This document shows, piece after piece, positions 38,316-50,042 of a stretch of DNA of 58,905 bases. The DNA lies in the NCBI GenBank assembly GCA_002869015.1, contig PKTT01000021.1, positions 31,702-90,606 of the forward strand, given 5' to 3'. The notes beneath the pieces are model-generated. The model was not told the DNA's origin. It saw nothing but the letters and a program-made list of their open reading frames with translations, and did no database searches. Each line of letters opens with the position of its first letter. The first letter of the stretch is position 1. The DNA is from Deltaproteobacteria bacterium. GTDB taxonomy: Bacteria > Desulfobacterota > Deferrisomatia > Deferrisomatales > BM512. The position numbers and the translations under genes are program-made.

Positions 38316-39713
38316 CTAGAGGGCGTGCTTGAAGAGGTCCATGAAGTAGCCGGGCAGGGAGCCGACCAGCAGTATCGCAAGGATGAAGGCTACGCCGAGC
38401 GCTTTGCCCAGCATGGATAAGTCCACCTTTGGGGCTGATTCCGCTGCATCGTCGGGTGCGTAAGCCGCGCGTACCATCTTCAGGTAGTAGTAGATGGATA
38501 TCGCGGTGTTCGCAGCGCCGATTATGACGAGCCACATGTGTTGCGATTTAAAGGCGCTGGTAAGCACGAAGAGCTTTCCGGCGAATCCTGCGGTAGGCGG
38601 AATGCCAGCTAGTCCGAAGGCGCCAACCGCCAGGGTGAAGGCGAGGAGCGGCGAGCGGGAGTGGAGCCCTTTAAGGTCATCGACGGTTACGTTCTCGCTA
38701 TCGGTGGAGATGTTATAGATTACGAAGAAGATGGCGAGATTCATAAGCAGGTAGCCGCCTACGTAATATATGGCGGAGGCGCTACCGGTGATGGTGTTGG
38801 TGAGTATCCCCGTCATCATGTAGCCGGCGTGGGAGATTGATGAGAAGGCGAGCAGCCTCTTTACGTCTGTCTGCACAAGCGCGGCAAAGTTACCGAAGGT
38901 CATGGATAGCGCCGCCAGCACAACCAGCAGGGTAGTGAAGTCAGAGCCCATGCCGGCCATCCCCGTGAGGCGAATCAGTACGGCAACCGCGCCGATTTTT
39001 GGCAGCGTCGCGATGATTGCGCTCGTCTCGTTTGCCGCGCCCTCGTATACGTCCGGGGTCCAGACGTGGAAGGGGAAGATGGCGAGCTTGAAGAAGAAGG
39101 AGGCGAACATCATCGAGAGGGCAACGAGCCCCATCGGCTCTGCCATTATCGCCGGGTAGGTCTTCACCAGCGTAGCTATATCGGTGGTGTGGGCGAGGCC
39201 GAATACGTAGGAGATGCCAAAGAGGCTTACGCCGGAGGCGGCCGCGCCGAAGAGGATGTACTTTATCGCAGCTTCTACTTGCGGCGAGCCGTCCCCGCGC
39301 CTAAGCGGCACAAGGATGTAGAGGGCGTAGGAGGCTACCTCAAGGGCTATGTATAGGGTAAGGAGGTTCATCGCGCTGGTGAGCAGGGTTAGCCCGAGCA
39401 CCGAGATGGAGAGGAAGAGGTAGTATTCAGCCTCATGCTCCGTCTCGTAGCTCTTAAGCCCGTCGCCCAGGGCTACGACTATGAAGAACCCCAGCGAGAT
39501 GAGCACTTTGAAGGTCTGTGAGAAGGCATCGACCCTGTAGGTGGCGCCAAAGAGGTCGCCATGCGCGCCGAAGGCCCAGAGGGCCGAAAGCACTGCGCCT
39601 GCCGAGAGGAGCAGCGCGAAGCGGCGCGGCGTACCCCGTCCCGTCTCCGCAAGGGTCAGGATGAAGAAGACTACCGCCGCCAGCGCGACGTATATTTCGT
39701 GTGCGAACGCCAT
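38316..39713 (-). CDS. nuoN: NADH-quinone oxidoreductase subunit N (NuoN)
   Basis: Antiporter-like membrane subunit of complex I, 465 residues with about 14 helices. TM5-type Glu in LYIALEVASYALY, TM7-type Lys in FFKLAIFPFHVWTPDVYEG, and LAFSSISHAGYMMTG, all typical for NuoN. It is the last gene of the operon, 28 bases after nuoM. Confidence 0.93.
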   Translation of the reverse strand: MAFAHEIYVALAAVVFFILTLAETGRGTPRRFALLLSAGAVLSALWAFGAHGDLFGATYRVDAFSQTFKVLISLGFFIVVALGDGLKSYETEHEAEYYLFLSISVLGLTLLTSAMNLLTLYIALEVASYALYILVPLRRGDGSPQVEAAIKYILFGAAASGVSLFGISYVFGLAHTTDIATLVKTYPAIMAEPMGLVALSMMFASFFFKLAIFPFHVWTPDVYEGAANETSAIIATLPKIGAVAVLIRLTGMAGMGSDFTTLLVVLAALSMTFGNFAALVQTDVKRLLAFSSISHAGYMMTGILTNTITGSASAIYYVGGYLLMNLAIFFVIYNISTDSENVTVDDLKGLHSRSPLLAFTLAVGAFGLAGIPPTAGFAGKLFVLTSAFKSQHMWLVIIGAANTAISIYYYLKMVRAAYAPDDAAESAPKVDLSMLGKALGVAFILAILLVGSLPGYFMDLFKHAL

Positions 39714-39741: not shown

Positions 39742-41448
39742 CTAATGTCCCGAGCTTTCGCCGTGGCTGCTTTCGCCGCCGTGCGTAGAGGGCGCTTCAT
39801 GCCCCCCGGCTTCGCCCCCAGCCTCCATGCCATGACCACTCTCACCATGCCCTGACTCCTCGCCGTGGTGACCGTCGCCGGCGCCCATCGCCTTCATGAA
39901 GCCACTCCAGCCGGGTTCGGGCAAGAGCGCCGAGGCTTCGGTTGCCGTTGTCTGCGAGATAACCTTGGAAATAGAGGTGGTCATCTTCTCTATGAAGGGC
40001 TTTGGCGCTAGGCCAATCCAAACTACGAAGACGGCAAGGAAGGTTAGCGTACCGAACTCCCTTAGATTTAGATCGAAGAAATGATGCTCGTGTCCGCCGT
40101 CGCCGTGGTGGCCGTGTCCGTCGTCCTTGTCCCAGATGATCTTCTGGAGGAGCCTGAGCATATATGTGGCGGCGAGAAGCGCGCCGGGTATTGCGAAGGC
40201 CCCAATCAGCTTATTCTTCTCAAAGGCCCCGATGAGCACCAGCAGCTCCCCTACAAAGGAGTTGGTGCCGGGGAAGCCAAGGGATGAGAGCGAAAATAAT
40301 CCCAGGAAGGCTACGTAAACCGGCATAAAGGCGCCAATAGCCGAGTTGTCCGCGATGAGGCGCGAGTGGCTTCGCTCGTAAATTATCCCGATACAGATAA
40401 AGAGCGCGCCGGTTGTTATGCCGTGGTTTACCATCTGTAGAATCGCGCCCTCGACCCCCTGCATATTTATCAGAAAAATGCCGAGGGTGACGAACCCCAT
40501 GTGTCCAACGGAGGAGTAGGCGACGAGCTTTTTGATGTCCTTTTGCCCAAGGGCGACGAAGCCACCGTAGAGGATTGAGATTATCGAAATCCAAAGGAGA
40601 ATCGGCGCCAGGTAGAGGGTCGCCGTCGGGGTTATCGGCAGGCAGAACCTGAGGAAGCCGTAGGTGCCCATCTTTAGGAGCACGGAGGCGAGGATTACTG
40701 AGCCTGGGGTCGGTGCTTCGACGTGCGCCGCCGGGAGCCATGTGTGGAAGGGGAACATCGGCACCTTGATCGCGAAGGCCAGCGCGAAGGCCAGGAAGAC
40801 CCAGAACTGGAAGGCGAAGGTATAGCCGTGCTCCATCAGCGTCGGTACGAAGAAGGTCCCGGTGGAGAAGTAGAGGGCGATAATTGCGACCAGCAGCATC
40901 ACCGAACCCGCCAGGGTATAGAGGAAGAACTTTAGCGATGCGTAAGCCTTGTTGTCGCCGCCCCAAACTGCTATCAGCAGGTACATCGGGATGAGCATCG
41001 CCTCCCAGAAGACATAGAAGAGGATGAGGTCAAGGGAGAGGAAGACCCCGATCATCGCCGTCTCCATGACGAGGAGCGCGAAGACGAACTCGTTGATGCG
41101 CTTGTCGATGTACTTCCATGAGCAGAGCACGCAAAGCGGCATGACGAAGGTTGTGAGCATAACCAGAAGGAGGCTTATCCCGTCTACGCCCAGGGTGTAG
41201 TTGATATCGAAGGCGTTTACCCAGGGGATGAACTCCGCGAACTGGAACTTCGCCGTAGCCCCGTCGAAGTTTGTGTAGATTGGGATAGAGAGGAGCGCCT
41301 CGGCCACCATCACAAGGAAAGCGAAACCCTTGAGCACCTTGTCGCCGCGTAAAAAGAGCGACACGACCGCCCCGGCGAGGGGGAGGAAGACAAGGTAGCT
41401 CAGTATCGGATAGCTGAAGCTGTCATTTAAGGCAAAGAACTCGCTCAT
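39742..41448 (-). CDS. nuoM: NADH-quinone oxidoreductase subunit M (NuoM) with histidine-rich loop and tail
   Basis: Proton-pumping antiporter-like subunit, 568 residues (longer than the usual 500-510). Key ionisable residues are in YVFWEAMLIPMYL (Glu) and AIKVPMFPFHTWLPAAHVEAP (Lys); VAYSSVGHMGFVTLG and GFPGTNSFVGELLVL are further NuoM motifs. Two His-rich segments are unusual: DDGHGHHGDGGHEHHFF in a loop near residue 440 and a C-terminal tail of about 48 residues with eight His among Gly, Ser and Glu. They could bind metal. The tail is unlike the rest of the protein and is probably on the cytoplasmic side, but that is not tested. Confidence 0.92.
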   Translation of the reverse strand: MSEFFALNDSFSYPILSYLVFLPLAGAVVSLFLRGDKVLKGFAFLVMVAEALLSIPIYTNFDGATAKFQFAEFIPWVNAFDINYTLGVDGISLLLVMLTTFVMPLCVLCSWKYIDKRINEFVFALLVMETAMIGVFLSLDLILFYVFWEAMLIPMYLLIAVWGGDNKAYASLKFFLYTLAGSVMLLVAIIALYFSTGTFFVPTLMEHGYTFAFQFWVFLAFALAFAIKVPMFPFHTWLPAAHVEAPTPGSVILASVLLKMGTYGFLRFCLPITPTATLYLAPILLWISIISILYGGFVALGQKDIKKLVAYSSVGHMGFVTLGIFLINMQGVEGAILQMVNHGITTGALFICIGIIYERSHSRLIADNSAIGAFMPVYVAFLGLFSLSSLGFPGTNSFVGELLVLIGAFEKNKLIGAFAIPGALLAATYMLRLLQKIIWDKDDGHGHHGDGGHEHHFFDLNLREFGTLTFLAVFVVWIGLAPKPFIEKMTTSISKVISQTTATEASALLPEPGWSGFMKAMGAGDGHHGEESGHGESGHGMEAGGEAGGHEAPSTHGGESSHGESSGH

Positions 41449-41463
41449 ATCGATACCGGTCCT

Positions 41464-43230
41464 TTATATATTCGCCACGAGGAGCACTAGGAGGAAGAAG
41501 GCGCTTATCGCTATAGCGATGTACTGTTGCAGCTTGCCCGTCTGGGCATGGCGCACATAATCGCCGGTTTCGCGCACCTTATGCGCGACGCCGTCCACAA
41601 CTCCGTCGATGATTGAAACGTCAAAGCGCGATGCTATCGCCGCAGCGCCAAGGGCGATGCGGTAGCCGACCACGCGGTAAAGTTCGCTCACCCACTCGTT
41701 GACGGGGGAGATCGGGTTTCTCGCGAAGGCCATGAAGCCGTCAAGGGCTCGCCTGTAGAAGATGTCGAGGTCGAGGTTGAGCTTCTCCTTGGGGACCATC
41801 TTCTTTCTTAGCACGTAAAAGCCTAGCGCGGTAAAGCCGAGCAGCTGGAAGGTCTCGGAGAGATGGTACGCGCTGTAGGGTTGGTAATCGACGGCGAAGG
41901 GGAGCATCTTGTAGAGCCACCCCGGCACGACGCCGATGAAGATGCAGAAAAAGCCCGCAATTCCCATCGCTACGACCATGTTCCAGGGAAGCTTTTTCTT
42001 GGGCTCTACCCCGGAATCCTTCCCGAACCAGATGAAGTAGGGGAGCTTTATGCCGACGGAGAGGAAGGTTCCGACGGCGGCGAGGGTCAGCATAAGCATA
42101 AGGCCGATCTCGTGGGCGTTGCCGGCTCCCGCTATCACCATCGACTTTGAGACAAAACCAGAGGTCAGAGGGAAGCCGGAGATTGCTATGCCGCCGATGA
42201 TGGTGAAGACCATCGCCACCGGCATCCGCTTGTAGAGCCCGCCCAGCTTGGAGAGGTCTGCGGTGCCAGCCATCTCCAGAACCGCGCCTACGCCCATGAA
42301 GAGGAGCGCCTTGTAGAGGATGTGCGCGTAGGCGTGGGCTACCGCGCCGTTTACAGCCATCTCCGTACCTATGCCGATGCCGCAGACCATGTACCCAACC
42401 TGGCTAATAATGTGGTAGGCGAGGATGCGGCGGGCGTTATTTTCAATGACGGCGTAGCCGACCCCGTAGAGGGTCATCACCGCGCCCATTATGGCGAGGA
42501 GCTCAAAGCCCGCGAAGCCGCGCGCGAGGACGTAGACGGCGGTCTTGGTGGTAAACGCGCACATGAAGACCGCGCCGGTTACTGTGGCCTCCGGGTAGGC
42601 GTCTGGCAGCCAGGCGTGGAGCGGGACCATCGCAGCGTTAAGCGCGAAACCGAGGAGGATGAGGTATTCGGCTACCCCGGCGTGTTCGGGGAGCATCGCG
42701 GTGAACTCCATCGACCCCACCTCGTGGTAGCGGAGGAAGATGCCTGCGAGGAGCACGAGGCCGCCGAAGGTGTGCATCAGGAGGTAGCGGTACCCAGCCG
42801 CTATGGACCGCTTCTCCCGGCGCGCCCATACGAGGAAGGTCGAGGCGACCGCCATCAGCTCCCAGAAGACGAAGAGGGTGAGGTAATCGCCTGCGAGGGT
42901 CGTGCCAAGTGACCCCGCTACGTAGAGGAACCCTGCCGTGTGCTGGGAGGAGTCCTCGACGTGCAGCGCGTAGACCGCGCCGATTATAGCCATCAGGGTG
43001 AAGACGTGGAGGAAGACCAGCGCCAGCTTGTCGATGCGCGAGGTGATGAGCTCAAAACCAAGGTAGTTCATCACGCCGTAGTCGCCGGGGGTCATGGAGT
43101 ACATCGTGGTAACGATGTAAAAGGCTATGACCGGAGTGGCGACCATCACGCACTTTCTCACGACCCCCTTTGTCAGGGGGGCGAGGAGGGCGCCGATAAT
43201 CATAATAAGAGCGGGGTGGACGTACATCAT
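41464..43230 (-). CDS. nuoL: NuoL-like subunit with MrpD-type antiporter core
   Basis: 588 residues. The antiporter core resembles MrpD-type proteins: FVFWELMAVASTF (TM5 Glu), LGFALNAAMVPLHAWLPDAYPEATV (TM7) and LAYHIISQVGYMVCG. In TM7 the residue equivalent to the Lys of NuoM/N is Asn. The C-terminal part (about 470-588, LDIFYRRALDG, RFDVSIIDGVVDGVAHKV and HAQTGKLQQYIAIAISAFF) corresponds to the lateral amphipathic helix and final membrane helix of NuoL, so it most likely takes the NuoL position at the distal end of the complex. It lies three bases after the 90-residue gene. Confidence 0.85.
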   Translation of the reverse strand: MMYVHPALIMIIGALLAPLTKGVVRKCVMVATPVIAFYIVTTMYSMTPGDYGVMNYLGFELITSRIDKLALVFLHVFTLMAIIGAVYALHVEDSSQHTAGFLYVAGSLGTTLAGDYLTLFVFWELMAVASTFLVWARREKRSIAAGYRYLLMHTFGGLVLLAGIFLRYHEVGSMEFTAMLPEHAGVAEYLILLGFALNAAMVPLHAWLPDAYPEATVTGAVFMCAFTTKTAVYVLARGFAGFELLAIMGAVMTLYGVGYAVIENNARRILAYHIISQVGYMVCGIGIGTEMAVNGAVAHAYAHILYKALLFMGVGAVLEMAGTADLSKLGGLYKRMPVAMVFTIIGGIAISGFPLTSGFVSKSMVIAGAGNAHEIGLMLMLTLAAVGTFLSVGIKLPYFIWFGKDSGVEPKKKLPWNMVVAMGIAGFFCIFIGVVPGWLYKMLPFAVDYQPYSAYHLSETFQLLGFTALGFYVLRKKMVPKEKLNLDLDIFYRRALDGFMAFARNPISPVNEWVSELYRVVGYRIALGAAAIASRFDVSIIDGVVDGVAHKVRETGDYVRHAQTGKLQQYIAIAISAFFLLVLLVANI

Positions 43231-43233
43231 CGG

Positions 43234-43506
43234 TTATTCCTCCCCCTCTTTTTTATCGTCATAGAAGTCAAGGGGCCTTATCAGCACCTCATGGGCGAAC
43301 CACTTCATGAATTTGGTCATGATTATCGTTCCGCCAAAGCCGAAGATAGCCCAGAAGCCGACCACCCTGTCTCCCGCGAAGTGCGCGCCGTGGCGTGTCG
43401 CGAAGGCGTCGAAGAGGACAAAAACGCCGAGCATGAGGGTGAAGAGCCCCATCAGGAGGTTCGGTTTTGACCTCAGGTATGAGATGAGGTTTACGAGCGC
43501 GCTCAT
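43234..43506 (-). CDS. Small two-helix membrane protein in the complex I operon, unknown function
   Basis: 90 residues with two hydrophobic helices (about 15-34, LLMGLFTLMLGVFVLFDAF, and 47-66, VVGFWAIFGFGGTIIMTKF) and a charged C-terminus (DFYDDKKEGEE). It is coupled to the upstream antiporter gene by a four-base overlap and is three bases from the NuoL-like gene. The size and place suggest an accessory subunit that joins the extra antiporter subunit. It does not match NuoK, MrpC/F/G or another complex I part that I can recognise. Confidence 0.75.
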   Translation of the reverse strand: MSALVNLISYLRSKPNLLMGLFTLMLGVFVLFDAFATRHGAHFAGDRVVGFWAIFGFGGTIIMTKFMKWFAHEVLIRPLDFYDDKKEGEE

Positions 43507-44975
43507 TTGACCACCTCAATCAGCTTGAGCCAGATATCGGGGTAAAAGCCGAAGACGACCGACATTACTGCGGTTAGAAAGAGTGGCACCACCATGAAGG
43601 GGGAGGCCTCCGCCATCTTGACCCTCTTCGCCACGCCGCCTTTGGGGAAGAAGGCGCGGATGAAGATTGGCACGAAATAACCTGCATTTAGAAGCGAACT
43701 GGCAAGGAGAACCACTAAAAGCCCGATCGAGCTCATCTCCATCGAGCCAAGGGCGAGATACCACTTTGATACGAACCCCGCCACCGGCGGCACGCCTATC
43801 ATCGAGAGGGAGGCGAGGCCAAAGGCCGCCATCGTGAAGGGCATCTTGTAGCCGATGCCGTCCAGGTCGGGGATCTCCTTTTTGTTGTGGGCGACGAAGA
43901 TTGCGCCCGCCGCGAAAAAGAGGGTGATCTTTGAAAAGGCGTGGTTCGGTATGTGTATAAGCCCGCCGGTCACTGCGCTTGGCGTCAACATCGCCACGCC
44001 GAGGATTATGTAGGAGAGCTGGGAGATCGTCGAGTAGGCGAGCCTGGCTTTCAGGTTGGTCTTAGTAAGCGCGATGATCGAGCCCATCAAGATGGTGAAG
44101 GAGGCTATGTAGGCGCTTGTTATGCCCAGCCCGGTTCGGCCCAGGAGGTCGATGCCGAATACGAAGAGCATCACCCGGCAGACCGAGAAGACGCCGACCT
44201 TGACGACTGCGACAGCGTGCAGCAGTGCGGAGACCGGCGTCGGTGCGACCATCGCTGAGGGGAGCCAGTTGTGCAGCGGCATGATGCCCGCCTTGGCGTA
44301 CCCGAAGAAGCTCAGGAAGTAGACTACTGCTATTATCGTCTGGTTGACGTCGGGTGAGAAGATGCCCGTGGTCATGTTGCCCGCAAAGTCCAGCGTCCCG
44401 GTAAGGACGTAGATTATCGCCAGCGCGGGGAGCAGCATCACCTTTGAGGTGAGCATAAGGTAACTGATGTATTTACGGCTGCCGTCGTAAGCCTCCGCGT
44501 CCTGATGGTGCATGACGAGGGGGTAGGTGAAGATTGAGACCAACTCATAAAAGAGGTAGAGCGAGATAAGTGAGCCTGAGAAGGCTACGCCCATCGCGCC
44601 GAAAATCGTTGCCGAGTAGCAGACGTAAAAGCGTGTCTGCGCATGCTCGTTTAGCCCCCTCATGTAACCGACGCAGTAAAAAGAGGCGAGAATCCAGAGG
44701 AAGGAGGAGACGAGCGCGAAGATCATGCTCATCCCGTCAACCCTCAGTATTACGTTGATCCCCTCATATATGTTGAAGAGGTTGAGGGAGTAGGTCCCCC
44801 CTGAGAGTATGTGGGGGAGCATCTTCGCCACCGCGAGGAAGGTAGCGACGGACCCTATAACGGAGAAGGAGTCCCGCACATTCTCGGACTTGCCCGTGAC
44901 AAGGTTCATTATTGCCGTCAGGAGGGGCAGGAGGAGCGGCAGGAGGATATAGGAGGTCTGGATATCGTTCATCAT
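43503..44975 (-). CDS. Extra antiporter-like complex I subunit (MrpD/NuoN-like)
   Basis: 490 residues, about 14 helices. TM5 Glu in YLFYELVSIFTYPLV, TM7 Lys in GYAKAGIMPLHNWLPSAMVAPTPVSALLH, and LAYSTISQLSYIILG. NHAFSKITLFFAAG is typical of MrpD/HycC-like subunits. It comes after nuoK and before the NuoL-like gene, so the operon holds a fourth antiporter-like subunit beside NuoL-, M- and N-like proteins. Start at ATG 44975 with GGGGG upstream, seven bases after the nuoK stop. Confidence 0.85.
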   Translation of the reverse strand: MMNDIQTSYILLPLLLPLLTAIMNLVTGKSENVRDSFSVIGSVATFLAVAKMLPHILSGGTYSLNLFNIYEGINVILRVDGMSMIFALVSSFLWILASFYCVGYMRGLNEHAQTRFYVCYSATIFGAMGVAFSGSLISLYLFYELVSIFTYPLVMHHQDAEAYDGSRKYISYLMLTSKVMLLPALAIIYVLTGTLDFAGNMTTGIFSPDVNQTIIAVVYFLSFFGYAKAGIMPLHNWLPSAMVAPTPVSALLHAVAVVKVGVFSVCRVMLFVFGIDLLGRTGLGITSAYIASFTILMGSIIALTKTNLKARLAYSTISQLSYIILGVAMLTPSAVTGGLIHIPNHAFSKITLFFAAGAIFVAHNKKEIPDLDGIGYKMPFTMAAFGLASLSMIGVPPVAGFVSKWYLALGSMEMSSIGLLVVLLASSLLNAGYFVPIFIRAFFPKGGVAKRVKMAEASPFMVVPLFLTAVMSVVFGFYPDIWLKLIEVVK

Positions 44976-44981
44976 AGCCCC

Positions 44982-45308
44982 CTAATCTTTCATGCCGGAG
45001 AGGTTGTCGGCGGTGATGAGCCTGAACCTCCGGTATATCGCCACGGCGATGGAGAGGGTGATGGCGGCCTCAGCTGCGGCGAGGCCCATAACGAAGAGGG
45101 TAAAGGTCGCTCCCTCTGTCTTGTCAGGCGCGATAAAGGTATTAAACGCCATAAAGTTCAGCCCCGCGCCGTTCAATATCAGCTCGACCGAGATGAGCAT
45201 CGAGATTAGCCCCGGTCGGCTTATGAGGCCGTAGAGCCCGAAGCTGAGGAGGATTAGGGCAACCAGGAGGTAGACCTCAAGGTTGCCGAAGAAGGTAGGA
45301 TGAATCAT
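44982..45308 (-). CDS. nuoK: NADH-quinone oxidoreductase subunit K (NuoK)
   Basis: Membrane subunit of 108 residues, three helices. The proton-path Glu residues are in ISVELILNGAGLNF and GLAAAEAAITLSI, as in E. coli NuoK. The start overlaps the nuoJ stop by four bases. Confidence 0.95.
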   Translation of the reverse strand: MIHPTFFGNLEVYLLVALILLSFGLYGLISRPGLISMLISVELILNGAGLNFMAFNTFIAPDKTEGATFTLFVMGLAAAEAAITLSIAVAIYRRFRLITADNLSGMKD

Positions 45309-45874
45309 ATCTCTTCTCCTCCAACACTCGTGCCGGTGCCGCGCCCGCGCTTGGCGATGACGACGGAGCCTATTATCGCTATGAGCAGCACGAGGGAGAT
45401 TAACTCAAAAGCCAGGACGTTATGGGTGAGGAGGCCGACGCCGATCTCAACCGGGGTATCGCCCTTTGTCACCTTTGCCGCCTCGCTCCAGTGCTGTGCG
45501 AATACAGCCGAGCCCACAGTCGCCGCCGTGAAGAGGCCGACTATGACGCCAAGGGCTATCTTAGTCGCGAGCCGCATCGACTTTTGCTTCACCTCCGCCG
45601 GCGGTCTGGCGAGCATGACCGCGAAGACCATGGAGATGGAGACCGCGCCGACGTAGATGAGTATCTGCATCGAGGCGATGAAGTAGTTGCCTAGGAAGGC
45701 ATAGAGCCCGGCGACGCCGATCAGGCAGAGGATGAGGCCCAGGACGGCGTGTATGAGCTGCTTTGCCAATATTGCGACTAGGCCGCCCGCCAAGGTCATC
45801 GCGATGAAGGCGATGAAGGTGACGTCGGCAATCGCTACATAGGCCGAGAAATCGGAGCTGAAGGTTATATCCAT
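45305..45874 (-). CDS. nuoJ: NADH-quinone oxidoreductase subunit J (NuoJ)
   Basis: Membrane subunit of 189 residues. ASMQILIYVGAVSISMVFAVML carries the conserved TM3 region with Tyr and Gly-Ala; LVAILAKQLIHAVLGLIL is TM2. It lies between nuoI and nuoK in standard order. Confidence 0.94.
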   Translation of the reverse strand: MDITFSSDFSAYVAIADVTFIAFIAMTLAGGLVAILAKQLIHAVLGLILCLIGVAGLYAFLGNYFIASMQILIYVGAVSISMVFAVMLARPPAEVKQKSMRLATKIALGVIVGLFTAATVGSAVFAQHWSEAAKVTKGDTPVEIGVGLLTHNVLAFELISLVLLIAIIGSVVIAKRGRGTGTSVGGEEI

Positions 45875-45889
45875 AGTCGATTACCCGTC

Positions 45890-46426
45890 TCAGGCGCCGG
45901 CGGGGGAGGGTGACTCACCGCCCTCGGCCTGGGGTTCCTTGGGTTCCTTCGGTTTCTCCACCGGCTCCGTCCACTCTATACCCATCTCTTCCGCCGCCTT
46001 CATGGCGCGGTCGAGTAGGTCGAAGTGGAAATCGTGCCGGGAAGTACCGACGAGATAGTAGTCGTTTGAGTATTTTATTGCGTTGGTGGGGCAGGTCTCC
46101 ACGCAGTTGCCGCAGAGCGAGCATTTGGTGAAGTCTAGGGTGTAGCCCGTGAGCTTTTTCTTCTTGGCACCCTCAGGCTTCACCGAATCAAGGGTAATGC
46201 AGCCGGAGGGGCATGCGCGCTCGCACATCCCGCAGGTGATGCACTTGTGGTAACCCTTCTTCGTCACGACGAGGTCGATGTGGCCCCGGAAGTTGAGGGT
46301 TACGGGAATTTTCTCAAAGGGATAGTGGGCGGTTATCGTCCTCTTGGTGCCGTAAAAGGCGGTCACCTTCATCCCGATGAGGAGGCTCTTTATGCCGACG
46401 AAGATCTCTTTAAAGTAATTTAGCAT
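45890..46426 (-). CDS. nuoI: NADH-quinone oxidoreductase subunit I (NuoI)
   Basis: Holds two [4Fe-4S] clusters (N6a, N6b) that pass electrons to NuoB. The two ferredoxin motifs are CITCGMCERACP near residue 62 and CSLCGNCVETCP near residue 101. The C-terminus has a low-complexity Pro/Glu-rich tail (VEKPKEPKEPQAEGGESPSP). GGGAGG precedes ATG 46426. Confidence 0.96.
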   Translation of the reverse strand: MLNYFKEIFVGIKSLLIGMKVTAFYGTKRTITAHYPFEKIPVTLNFRGHIDLVVTKKGYHKCITCGMCERACPSGCITLDSVKPEGAKKKKLTGYTLDFTKCSLCGNCVETCPTNAIKYSNDYYLVGTSRHDFHFDLLDRAMKAAEEMGIEWTEPVEKPKEPKEPQAEGGESPSPAGA

Positions 46427-46430
46427 TCTC

Positions 46431-47438
46431 TCAGCCTCCCACCGCTTTTATCCAGATCGCCGCAGCGGCGAGGTTTACGAGGGAGAAGGGGATAAGCACC
46501 TTCCAGCAGAGGTTGAGGAGCTGGTCGAAGCGCACGCGGGGGAATGTCCACCGCATCCAGATCATCACGAATATGAGAAAGTATGCTTTGGCAAGGAAGA
46601 TGAGCACTCTTATCAGCTCCCAGAGCACGCCCTCGCCGTTCAGGGTGACGAAGGGCAGGTTGTAGCCGCCGAGAAAGAGGCTCGTCGCAATAGCCGAGAC
46701 GAGGATCATGTTGGTGTATTCGCCGAGGAAGAAGAGGCCGAAGCCCATCCCCGAATACTCGGTGTGAAAGCCTGCGGTCAGTTCAGATTCAGCTTCGGGC
46801 AGGTCGAAGGGGGCGCGGTTGGTCTCAGCCATGCCGGTGACAAAGTAGATGAGGAAGGCGACAAAGCCGAAAGGTGTGAAGACAAACCAGAAGCCGCCCT
46901 GCGCATCGACTAGCTCACCGAGGTTGAGGGTCCCCATCCAGAGCACCGCCGTGAGGAGGCTGAGGAGCAGGGGGATCTCATAGGCGATGTTTTGCGCAAC
47001 CGAGCGCACCGCGCCAAAGAGCGAGTATTTGTTGGCGCTAGCCCACCCCGCGATGAGGATTGCTAGGACGTTAAGCGCCGCAAGGGAGAGTATGAAGAGT
47101 ATCCCGATATCCAGATTCTGGACCTGCACGACCTTGCCGAAGGGCACGGTGAGGAGCGCCGCGATAGGCGGCACGAAGGAGAGGACCGGCGCCAGCATAA
47201 AGAGGCGCTTGTCCGCCTTGCCCGGAATAATAAGCTGCTTCGCCATCAGCTTAAGGCCGTCGATGGCGGTCTGAAGTAGGCCGAAGGGGCCGACCTCGAA
47301 GGGGCCTGGCCTACGCTGGATGTGGGCGGAGACCTTTCGCTCCACCCAGACGAGGACCGCCGAATTGGTGAAGACGTAAAGCACCATCACTACCGCCGCC
47401 ACCACGATCAGGAGAATGTTAGGGCTTTCAATCTGCAT
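46431..47438 (-). CDS. nuoH: NADH-quinone oxidoreductase subunit H (NuoH)
   Basis: Membrane subunit that forms the quinone chamber with NuoB and NuoD. VERKVSAHIQRRPGPFEVGPFGLLQ and ETNRAPFDLPEAESELTAGFHTEYSG are the conserved signatures. I favour ATG 47438 because AGGTGAGCG lies upstream; GTG 47447, right after the nuoD stop, is the alternative. About 335 residues is normal. Confidence 0.94.
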   Translation of the reverse strand: MQIESPNILLIVVAAVVMVLYVFTNSAVLVWVERKVSAHIQRRPGPFEVGPFGLLQTAIDGLKLMAKQLIIPGKADKRLFMLAPVLSFVPPIAALLTVPFGKVVQVQNLDIGILFILSLAALNVLAILIAGWASANKYSLFGAVRSVAQNIAYEIPLLLSLLTAVLWMGTLNLGELVDAQGGFWFVFTPFGFVAFLIYFVTGMAETNRAPFDLPEAESELTAGFHTEYSGMGFGLFFLGEYTNMILVSAIATSLFLGGYNLPFVTLNGEGVLWELIRVLIFLAKAYFLIFVMIWMRWTFPRVRFDQLLNLCWKVLIPFSLVNLAAAAIWIKAVGG

Positions 47439-47447
47439 GTCGCTCAC

Positions 47448-48563
47448 CTAGCGGTCTATTTCCGGGATGACCAGGTCGAAAGACCCCATTACGGCCACCA
47501 GATCGGAGAGTAGGATTCCGCGCGTCAGTTCTTTCAGAATCGACAGGTTGGAGTAGGAGGGCACCCTTATCTTCATACGGTAGGGGCTTGTCGAGCCGTC
47601 GCAGGCGATATAGTAGCCGAGGGAGCCGCGCGCGGCCTCCACGGCCTGGTAGACCTCGCCCTTCGCCTTAATCACCTTCGGCACCTTCTCAGCCATTACC
47701 GGCCCCTCGGGGAGCTTGGCGATCGCCTGCTCGATGATTCTTAGAGATTGCTCTATCTCCGCCCACCTTACGTCGTAGCGGCCCATGCAGTCGCAGCGCT
47801 CGGAGGTCGGGATATCGAAATCCAGCTCGGGGTATATTGAGTAGGGCTCCGAGCGGCGCACATCGTAGGGGATGCCGCTGCCGCGTATAACCGGGCCAGT
47901 GCAGCCGTATTTTAGCGCCATGTCGCGGGTTATGAGGCCTACGTCCTCGACGCGCTTTCTGAAGATGATGTTGCCGGAGACGAGCTTGTGGTACATGGGG
48001 ATGCGGTCTCTCATCCTCTTTACGAAGGCGAGTACACCGTCGCACCAATCCTTGTCTACGTCAGCACAGACGCCGCCGACGCGCATATAGCTGAAGGTCA
48101 GCCGAGCGCCGGTTACGTGCTCAAGCAGATCCAGAATCGCCTCTCTGTCATCGAAGGAGTAGAGGATGGGGGTGAATGCGCCGAGGTCGAGAAGAAATGC
48201 GCCGAACCATAAAAGGTGGCTCGCCACCCGGTTTAGCTCGGTGGTTATGACGCGAAGGTATTCGGCGCGCTCAGGCACCTCAAGGTCGGGGAGCATCCGC
48301 TCCACCGCGAGGATATGGCCGTGACCGAAGGAGAGCGCCCCGCCGTAGTCCATCCTGCCGACGTTGGCGTAAAAGCCGCGGTGGTCGCGCACCTCGCCGA
48401 TGAGCTCATGCATCCGGTGCCCGTAGCCAATGACCGGCTCCGCGTCCAGCACGTACTCGCCGTCGCAATGTAGCACTACCCTCAAAACGCCGTGCGTTGA
48501 GGGGTGCTGCGGTCCCATGTTGAGGACAAGGGTCTCCTGGGTCGGATCGGGCTTTTGAATCAT
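47448..48563 (-). CDS. nuoD: NADH-quinone oxidoreductase subunit D (NuoD)
   Basis: 49-kDa-type subunit lining the quinone site. MGPQHPSTHGVLRV at the N-terminus carries the quinone-binding His, and GPVIRGSGIPYDVRRSEPY and GSFDLVIPEIDR are the other family blocks. 371 residues, not fused to NuoC. Overlaps nuoC by four bases. Confidence 0.95.
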   Translation of the reverse strand: MIQKPDPTQETLVLNMGPQHPSTHGVLRVVLHCDGEYVLDAEPVIGYGHRMHELIGEVRDHRGFYANVGRMDYGGALSFGHGHILAVERMLPDLEVPERAEYLRVITTELNRVASHLLWFGAFLLDLGAFTPILYSFDDREAILDLLEHVTGARLTFSYMRVGGVCADVDKDWCDGVLAFVKRMRDRIPMYHKLVSGNIIFRKRVEDVGLITRDMALKYGCTGPVIRGSGIPYDVRRSEPYSIYPELDFDIPTSERCDCMGRYDVRWAEIEQSLRIIEQAIAKLPEGPVMAEKVPKVIKAKGEVYQAVEAARGSLGYYIACDGSTSPYRMKIRVPSYSNLSILKELTRGILLSDLVAVMGSFDLVIPEIDR

Positions 48564-49072
48564 TCCGACACCTCACCTTCATTGGCAGACGCTTCCTCCG
48601 CCTTCTCCTCGACGAAGCGGTCAAAGACCTCGGAGAGAATTTTGATTTTATTCTCCTTTTTCAGGAGCGGATGAAAATCGACCTGATCTTCTGGGAGAAT
48701 CAGCGGGGTCATGTCGGGGTGGTCCTCAAAGACTATGCCGAAGAAGTCCCTTACCTCGCGCTCGTGCCAATTTGCGCCGGGGTAGATATCAGAGATGGTG
48801 GGGCAGCGCTTTACCGAGCGCTCCACAAGAACGCGGGCGGCTACTCGGCATAATTCGTCCGGGTGGGTGAAGTGGTAGAGGACCATCATGTTTGGCTCTG
48901 CGTCCACCGCGGTAACCGACTCGATGAGGAAATCCTCCTCCCTGATGAGGGAGGCGAAGGTGCGCACCCAGGTAAGCCCCATGAGAACGTCAACATGGAC
49001 GCCTGTTGAGGGGTAATCGGAGGCGATAGCCTCTACGCCCTCTAGCTCTTTTAGCCTGTCGAGAATCTTCAT
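48560..49072 (-). CDS. nuoC: NADH-quinone oxidoreductase subunit C (NuoC)
   Basis: 30-kDa-type subunit of the hydrophilic arm, 170 residues. WHEREVRDFFGIVFEDHPDMTPLILPEDQ is the family signature. A short acidic tail follows. Its ATG shares one base with the nuoB stop. Confidence 0.94.
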   Translation of the reverse strand: MKILDRLKELEGVEAIASDYPSTGVHVDVLMGLTWVRTFASLIREEDFLIESVTAVDAEPNMMVLYHFTHPDELCRVAARVLVERSVKRCPTISDIYPGANWHEREVRDFFGIVFEDHPDMTPLILPEDQVDFHPLLKKENKIKILSEVFDRFVEEKAEEASANEGEVSE

Positions 49073-49701
49073 TATGATATCCCCGTGGGCTTCTCGCGTT
49101 TAGGGGCTAGCGCGCCGCCAAGCTGCGGGAGGGGGTTTCGCTTGCCGGTGATCAGCTCCTGGAGCTTCAATACACCCTCTATGACCGCTTCGGGGCGGGG
49201 AGGGCAGCCGGGGATGTATATGTCGACGGGGACGAGCCTGTCGACGCCCTCAATGACGTTGTAGTTTTCCTCGATGCAGAAGGGGCCGCCGGAGATGGCG
49301 CAGTTGCCCATCGCAATGACCCACTTGGGGGAGGGCATCTGCTCGTAGAGGCGCATGACGACCGGCGCCATCTTCTTGTTGACGGTGCCCGCGAAGATCA
49401 TGAGGTCACACTGCCTGGGCGAGGGCCTGAATACTTCGGAGCCGAAGCGGGATATATCTACTCGTGCCATACCCGCCGCCATCATTTCGAGGGCGCAGCA
49501 TGCGAGGCCGAAGGTCATGGGCCAGATGGAGTTGGCGCGGCAGAAATCGACGAGCATCTGCACCGCGCCGAGCATCGGCGGAACCTCGGCGGTTGTCTGG
49601 TAGCCTGGGCCGGGCTCGATGGAGGGGCAGGAGTCGCACCCGTCCATCAGGATCGGCTTCGCTATTTTCTTCGTGTCCAAGTGAAGACTCCCTTGCGCCA
49701 T
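49072..49701 (-). CDS. nuoB: NADH-quinone oxidoreductase subunit B (NuoB)
   Basis: Carries the terminal [4Fe-4S] cluster N2. Cluster ligands are in [15 protein letters not shown] (the tandem Cys), GNCAISGG and [18 protein letters not shown] 49701 overlaps nuoA by 40 bases without a ribosome binding site; TTG 49680 has GGGAG seven bases upstream and is a good alternative start. The protein has an extra Pro-rich tail after the core. Confidence 0.94.
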
Positions 49702-50042
49702 GCGTAAGCTATGGCGAGCGCCAGTATGGCGATGAAAAGAACGACCTCGACCGCTACGCCTATTCCCGGCACCTGACGGTACGCGAGGGAGGCGGGGAAG
49801 AGGTAGAGCACGTCCACGTCAAAGGCGAGGAACATGAGGGCATACAAGTAATATAGAACGCCGTAACGAATCCAAGCCGGTCCGATTGGGTCCATGCCGC
49901 ATTCGTATGTCTCTAAAGTCTTTTCATGAAATGTCTTGGGAGCCAGGAGGGCGACGATACCGAAGGGGAGCATTGCAGCGAGTGTTCCTACCACAATGAA
50001 GATGACTACATAGGCGTGGTCTATCAGCCAGGTCTCTGTCAT
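49662..50042 (-). CDS. nuoA: NADH-quinone oxidoreductase subunit A (NuoA)
   Basis: Membrane subunit of 126 residues with three helices. [37 protein letters not shown] includes the conserved ECG-DP and the FDVD region. First gene of the complex I operon; AAGGGG precedes the ATG. Confidence 0.95.

Follow-up and report, generated by a model that had tools for sequence, protein, structure and literature searches.

Green complex I is the form in which two MrpD-like subunits replace NuoL, as set out in the available passages of one source (PMC9040806), and it is described further in the accessible part of another (PMC7415380). In the group 3 Mrp of 'Ca. Nitrospira alkalitolerans', two antiporter genes follow mrpD, according to the available portion of its description (PMC7784846). 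Complex_I_3 of 'Ca. Manganitrophaceae' carries a 26-residue insertion in the lateral helix that is absent from rhizobial green complex I, and a similar insertion is given for 2M complex I, which has an additional NuoM (both in the available passages of PMC9040806). A small gene between two antiporter genes is not mentioned in the available portions of PMC9040806, PMC7784846, PMC5419562, PMC7415380, PMC5109826, or PMC12361115, and an earlier mention is possible.

The locus examined here holds such a gene. It lies within a window of 58,905 nucleotides (the whole stretch of DNA that was analysed; contig PKTT01000021.1 of a deltaproteobacterial assembly, GCA_002869015.1), the minus strand of which carries a complex I operon in the order nuoA-B-C-D-H-I-J-K-X-s-Y-M-N. 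X, s, and Y form a cassette in which X is MrpD-like (NF006236), s is the small gene, and Y is MrpA/NuoL-like with a lateral helix (NF009310). The first-pass annotation had placed s between an extra antiporter gene and a NuoL-like gene, and the profile matches agree: X (43503..44975, minus strand; 490 aa, without a lateral-helix extension) matches NF006236 with 726 bits and Y (41464..43230, minus strand; 588 aa) matches NF009310 with 751 bits, both over cut-off, the assignment of Y drawing also on an AlphaFold2 model and Foldseek.

The operon of the window and the small gene within it

The cassette is preceded by nuoA (49662-50042), nuoB (49072-49701), nuoC (48560-49072), and nuoD (47448-48563), read as ORFs and named from sequence and order, and then by nuoH (46431..47447; NF004741, over cut-off), a nuoI-like gene (45890..46426; assigned by inspection from two 4Fe-4S motifs and its position), nuoJ (45305..45874; PF00499), and nuoK (44982..45308; PF00420), and it is followed by nuoM (39742..41448; 568 aa, TIGR01972, 595 bits) and nuoN (38316..39713; 465 aa, TIGR01770, 342 bits), all on the minus strand. 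With starts taken at the first ATG, the nuoA and nuoB frames share 40 nt (window positions 49662-49701), and nuoB may start further in. A separate nuoL was not found in this operon by ORFs or NCBIfam profiles, nor were nuoE, nuoF, or nuoG found there by ORFs. A second complex I in the same genome includes a canonical NuoL (TIGR01974, 761 bits with in-frame neighbours, contig C44). Its membrane arm (G000 contig C44:62-5152) comprises this NuoL and two more antiporter-like frames. Despite these two forms of complex I, the family profile finds one copy of s in the genome. Two forms of complex I in one organism likewise occur in some rhizobia.

Gene s (43234..43506, minus strand) opens with ATG and encodes a 90-aa, two-helix membrane protein, an assignment based on the ORF and its overlaps, family, position, AlphaFold2 model, and dN/dS; frame 1 of the plus strand over the same interval is interrupted by stops. 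The start codon of s and the stop codon of X overlap by 4 nt, and 3 nt separate the stop codon of s from the ATG of Y, so the tight fit to both neighbours claimed at first pass stands. By inspection, a Shine-Dalgarno-like GAGGTGG lies upstream of s, and the GGGGGAGG ahead of Y lies within the 3' end of s itself. A codon comparison of s with the copy from the same genus gave a dN of 0.010 and a dS of 0.364, with 18 of the 19 changes at third codon positions, from which it follows that s encodes a protein under selection. Hence s is a real gene, and its protein is under purifying selection, with a dN/dS of ~0.03 across the entire gene.

These data bear on two alternatives. It could be argued that s serves mainly translation, carrying the ribosome-binding site of Y and coupling Y to X while its protein is unimportant, since the Shine-Dalgarno sequence of Y falls within the last codons of s; this is very improbable because the low ratio extends over the whole gene and protein motifs are kept family-wide, both of which point to selection on the protein. 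Some relatives do have long spurious frames that overlap s, but practically no weight attaches to the idea that s is itself a chance or out-of-frame reading in a GC-rich operon, which is refuted by codon-level selection and by more than 100 relatives at the same place. An apparent fusion of s to X, in the form of ~580-aa open frames around s in several relatives, was rejected, as these frames are out-of-frame stretches over X. Translation places the start of the true s in those relatives at its own ATG.

The family to which the small protein belongs has no name; its members are ~64-103 aa long, are predicted to have two membrane helices, and carry an EDYYD motif at the C-terminus. Neither s nor 27 of its relatives matched Pfam or NCBIfam over cut-off, and s had no match in the PDB, whether searched as a single sequence or as a profile. 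Profiles of the small Nuo and Mrp subunits (NuoA and NuoK; MrpC, MrpE, MrpF, and MrpG) likewise gave nothing over cut-off for s and the 27 relatives, the closest score to a known subunit being that of MrpG in one relative (E=0.074). The initial impression that s fits no known complex I subunit thus agrees with the Pfam, NCBIfam, and PDB searches of s and its relatives. Weak matches to DUF2516 in Pfam (E=0.024, at half the cut-off) and to cytochrome c oxidase polypeptide 4 in the PDB (E=0.51), along with isolated weak NCBIfam matches, were taken as chance. The window protein scores 115.9 bits on the family profile, in whose alignment it is itself included, and as a single query it reaches relatives at 26% identity and lower. 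Weighted over 181 sequences, the most conserved positions are Y82 (97%), K68 (84%), G56 (83%), and F51 (82%), followed by D80 (76%) and F55 (73%); position 49 is P in 88% of sequences and V in the window protein. The latter has two predicted membrane helices and a C-terminal motif that reads LDFYDD, with Y82 present.

Distribution and genomic contexts of the cassette

A family profile built from 28 sequences, with at least 30 bits counted as a strong match, detected s in 111 of the 247 genomes from the phylum, at 126 places in all. At 123 of these 126 places s is flanked, on its own strand, by X upstream and by Y downstream; the exceptions are one genome whose contig ends before X (G004), one whose contig ends before Y could be found (G145), and the second s of G152, which has Y after it and no X directly before. 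Ten of all 136 s places scored below 30 bits and were left out of the counts; none adjoined X or Y. Viewed from Y, 125 of 128 genes in the 247 genomes have s in front, the other three being two at a contig start and one partial match below cut-off. Viewed from X, 10 of 134 NF006236 places in the phylum genomes lack an adjoining s. Eight of the ten are weaker paralogues (350-472 bits against a cut-off of 663), one is at a contig edge, and in the last (G200) 643 bases of contig remain past the NF006236 match, in which neither s nor Y was found. A scan for co-occurrence with the extra antiporter gene, as the first-pass annotation had proposed, therefore shows a gene that is not absent from related operons.

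The gap between s and Y is tight (median -1), whereas that between X and s is looser (median 41, up to 489). In addition, contig C13 of G152 (L105, 5492-9762) carries X-s-Y in tandem with a second s-Y unit without a second X. Both the tighter gap and this duplication suggest, from gene arrangement, that s goes with Y. L116 (G195 C77) and L093 (G252 C1) each hold a second, diverged copy of the cassette in which s matches weakly (34 and 31 bits).

Named genomes were scanned with an alignment of Y alone, and s had no part in choosing these loci. Among the best 80 of at least 585 Y matches, which are an uneven sample of bacteria, s is present at 77; at the three loci without it (L130, L152, and L174) the Y match starts 74, 47, and 115 bases from the contig start. 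Record titles among the matches listed include Desulfobacterota, Planctomycetota, Verrucomicrobia, Acidobacteria, Marinimicrobia, Rhizobium, Ensifer, Rhodobacterales, Nitrosomonadales, and a Natronospiraceae MAG. The closest record among the matches listed is the MAG 'Deltaproteobacteria bacterium BM525', at 98% over Y. Between X and Y, the annotations of Sinorhizobium meliloti pSymA, Rhizobium sp. Pop5, and Phyllobacterium list a 'hypothetical protein', which in each case is a member of the s family.

Genomic context was counted for 181 aligned s loci out of 184 examined. In 122 of the 181 loci nuoM is accompanied on the same strand by nuoK, nuoJ, nuoH, or nuoD; a further 12 have nuoM alone, and the remaining 47 are without nuoM. 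Among these 47, nuoK, nuoJ, or nuoH is still present in 8, and many of the remainder are mrp clusters. As examples, L117 has a NuoG-like gene followed by H-I-J-K-M-N-X-s-Y, and the mrp cluster of L113 consists of mrpE, F, G, two pieces of the MrpA C-terminal part, B, C, D, X, s, and Y. The cassette thus stands in for NuoL in nuo operons and is also found in mrp operons. In four of four haloarchaeal mrp loci examined, s is absent and X and Y overlap or abut, which indicates that the X-Y pair can work without s. Haloarchaeal X is longer (550 and 657 aa at L123 and L124) and contains a long hydrophilic internal loop, with no s at these loci. A fusion with s was considered for the longer X and rejected, as the extra length is the internal loop and no s is added.

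At first pass s was taken for a subunit of the respiratory complex on account of its tight placement. The nearly constant place between X and Y fits that reading, in which s would be a putative physical member of the complex, though s does not accompany the four haloarchaeal X-Y pairs and, since it is also found with the pair in mrp clusters, is not specific to complex I.

A putative place for s in the membrane arm

The AlphaFold2 model of s, built with 76 sequences (mean pLDDT 85.9, pTM 0.57), places helices at residues 3-13, 15-35, 44-47, 51-75, and 80-83; s is accordingly predicted to fold as a hairpin of two helices, with a short helix at the N-terminus and the conserved EDYYD tail at the other end. 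The hairpin is in keeping with the membrane protein, 90 residues in length, that had been read from the ORF at first pass. Judging from the basic residues near them, the two termini would both face the cytoplasm. Foldseek returned one meaningless match for this model, a two-helix hairpin being an uninformative query. The model of Y, built with 35 sequences (mean pLDDT 84.3, the tail low in confidence), has an antiporter core to residue 473, a 73-residue lateral helix (490-562), and a terminal TM helix (567-586); its top Foldseek matches include MrpA (7qru_A) and, among others, NuoL chains. NuoM and NuoN are not known to carry a lateral helix. Among the 91 nuo-type Y, 7 lack the DxDxxYR motif, and in 82 of the other 84 the tail after the motif measures 94-101 aa, in keeping with a lateral helix of ordinary length; the two outliers are a truncated frame and one with an insertion (L080). 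The tail of the window Y is without an insertion. Lateral-helix lengths of mrp-type Y were too unreliable for use. An insertion of 24-32 residues with a repeated FD..IDG-type motif was observed in the lateral helix of Y at L080, L099, and L201, and at L080 and L099 no second NuoM adjoins.

We consider it somewhat probable that s is a small accessory subunit of the X-s-Y cassette that is bound to Y and helps to fix the extra pump X. With the cassette replacing nuoL, the membrane arm would get four antiporter-like subunits (X, Y, M, and N) instead of three. Y would occupy the place of NuoL, and X would sit farther out, past the reach of the lateral helix of Y. That this helix is of ordinary length in an arm with four antiporter-like subunits suggests that it spans M and N and that X is outermost, an order of X and Y deduced from helix length; with X outermost, s would tie X to Y. 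In doing so, s would pack on Y, possibly on its last core helix (TM15), and help to hold or assemble X onto the arm, and by itself would do no pumping. The gene structure and conservation of s are established; its membership in the complex and its docking site are putative. Two observations run counter to this model: the three Y with a lateral-helix insertion are unexplained by an outermost X, and X-Y pairs occur without s in the four haloarchaeal mrp loci. A broader version, which is possible but doubtful, would make X-s-Y a portable cassette that adds a pump unit to complex I and to cation/H+ antiporters, with s as a dedicated connector that would let the added unit function and would dock on Y at its last core helix, immediately ahead of the lateral helix.

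Covariation offers a weak lead toward an s-Y contact. Direct coupling at 122 loci gave 15.0 strong couplings per 10,000 column pairs for s with Y, compared to 7.1 with X, 9.1 with M, and 6.4 with N, at an effective number of ~80-120 sequences. Every partner exceeds shuffled pairing because of shared ancestry. The stretch of Y densest in couplings, residues 453-482, covers TM15 (p of 0.08, 0.08, and 0.015 at three cut-offs, n=177); at n=122 no stretch of Y reaches significance (p 0.12-0.74 for the best one, with windows differing), and X and N too have stretches with p of ~0.03. Gappy C-terminal columns were left out of the final direct-coupling runs. Mutual information was set aside, being dominated by a single column (F43) that is a clade marker.

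The tight coupling of s to Y and the absence of s in haloarchaea are as compatible with a helper as with a subunit, and s may thus be an assembly factor that inserts Y or joins X to Y during biogenesis and is absent from the finished complex. We regard this as unlikely, since it is more usually a fixed subunit that shows near-perfect gene adjacency in several phyla together with conservation of a C-terminal motif. Genes of assembly factors are often located elsewhere. Still less likely is a role of s in ion translocation, in which its conserved charged or polar residues would supply the missing part of an ion path linking X with Y, or would determine which ion is used. Such a role could draw on the helix-end lysine K68, kept in 84% of sequences, on loop histidines such as H42, kept in ~60% (both weighted), and on the occurrence of the cassette in mrp cation/H+ antiporter clusters. 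However, the model puts K68 close to what would be the cytoplasmic end of TM2, where lysine is common, D33 (49%, weighted) and H42 (60%) are poorly kept, and haloarchaeal antiporters do without s.

Comparison with known systems

The number of pump units in complex I sets the ions moved per electron pair. The small gene provides a marker for the form with four pumps in several phyla of bacteria, nodule bacteria among them, and it raises the structural question of how an extra antiporter is attached. Small membrane subunits that adjoin the NuoL-type subunit are NdhP and NdhQ of cyanobacterial NDH-1 and MbhI of the archaeal membrane-bound hydrogenase. The PDB searches gave no sequence relation of s to these proteins, and the Foldseek query was uninformative.

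Haloarchaeal mnh clusters, which we take to be group 3 Mrp, have an X-Y-like pair after mrpD without s. Group 3 Mrp shares with the window antiporter genes like X and Y, which there follow mrpD, and has no redox genes. The Nitrospira 2M complex and Complex_I_3 have, like the window, more than three antiporter-like subunits; the window operon is not of the Nitrospira 2M type, as it has one NuoM and no lateral-helix insertion in Y.

The closest counterpart is the green complex I of S. meliloti pSymA, where an 84-aa 'hypothetical protein' (WQP09503.1) lies between the two MrpD-like genes. This protein is a member of the s family (73 bits on the 28-sequence profile) and has the same place between X and Y and the same 4-nt overlap with X; Y of the rhizobial plasmids is 49-54% identical to that of the window. 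The available passages on rhizobial green complex I (PMC9040806, PMC7415380) mention no small subunit. The pSymA operon is annotated as J-K-X-s-Y-(M)-N-A-C-D-E-F and includes nuoE and nuoF of the NADH module, whereas that of the window reads A-B-C-D-H-I-J-K-X-s-Y-M-N and is without nuoE, nuoF, and nuoG. The window thus differs from rhizobial green complex I in gene order and in having no NADH-input genes, and it shares the feature that two MrpD-like genes replace nuoL, the canonical NuoL being encoded on another contig only. The type of complex is already known, and in bacteria the small protein seems to be a nearly constant member of it that lacks a name.
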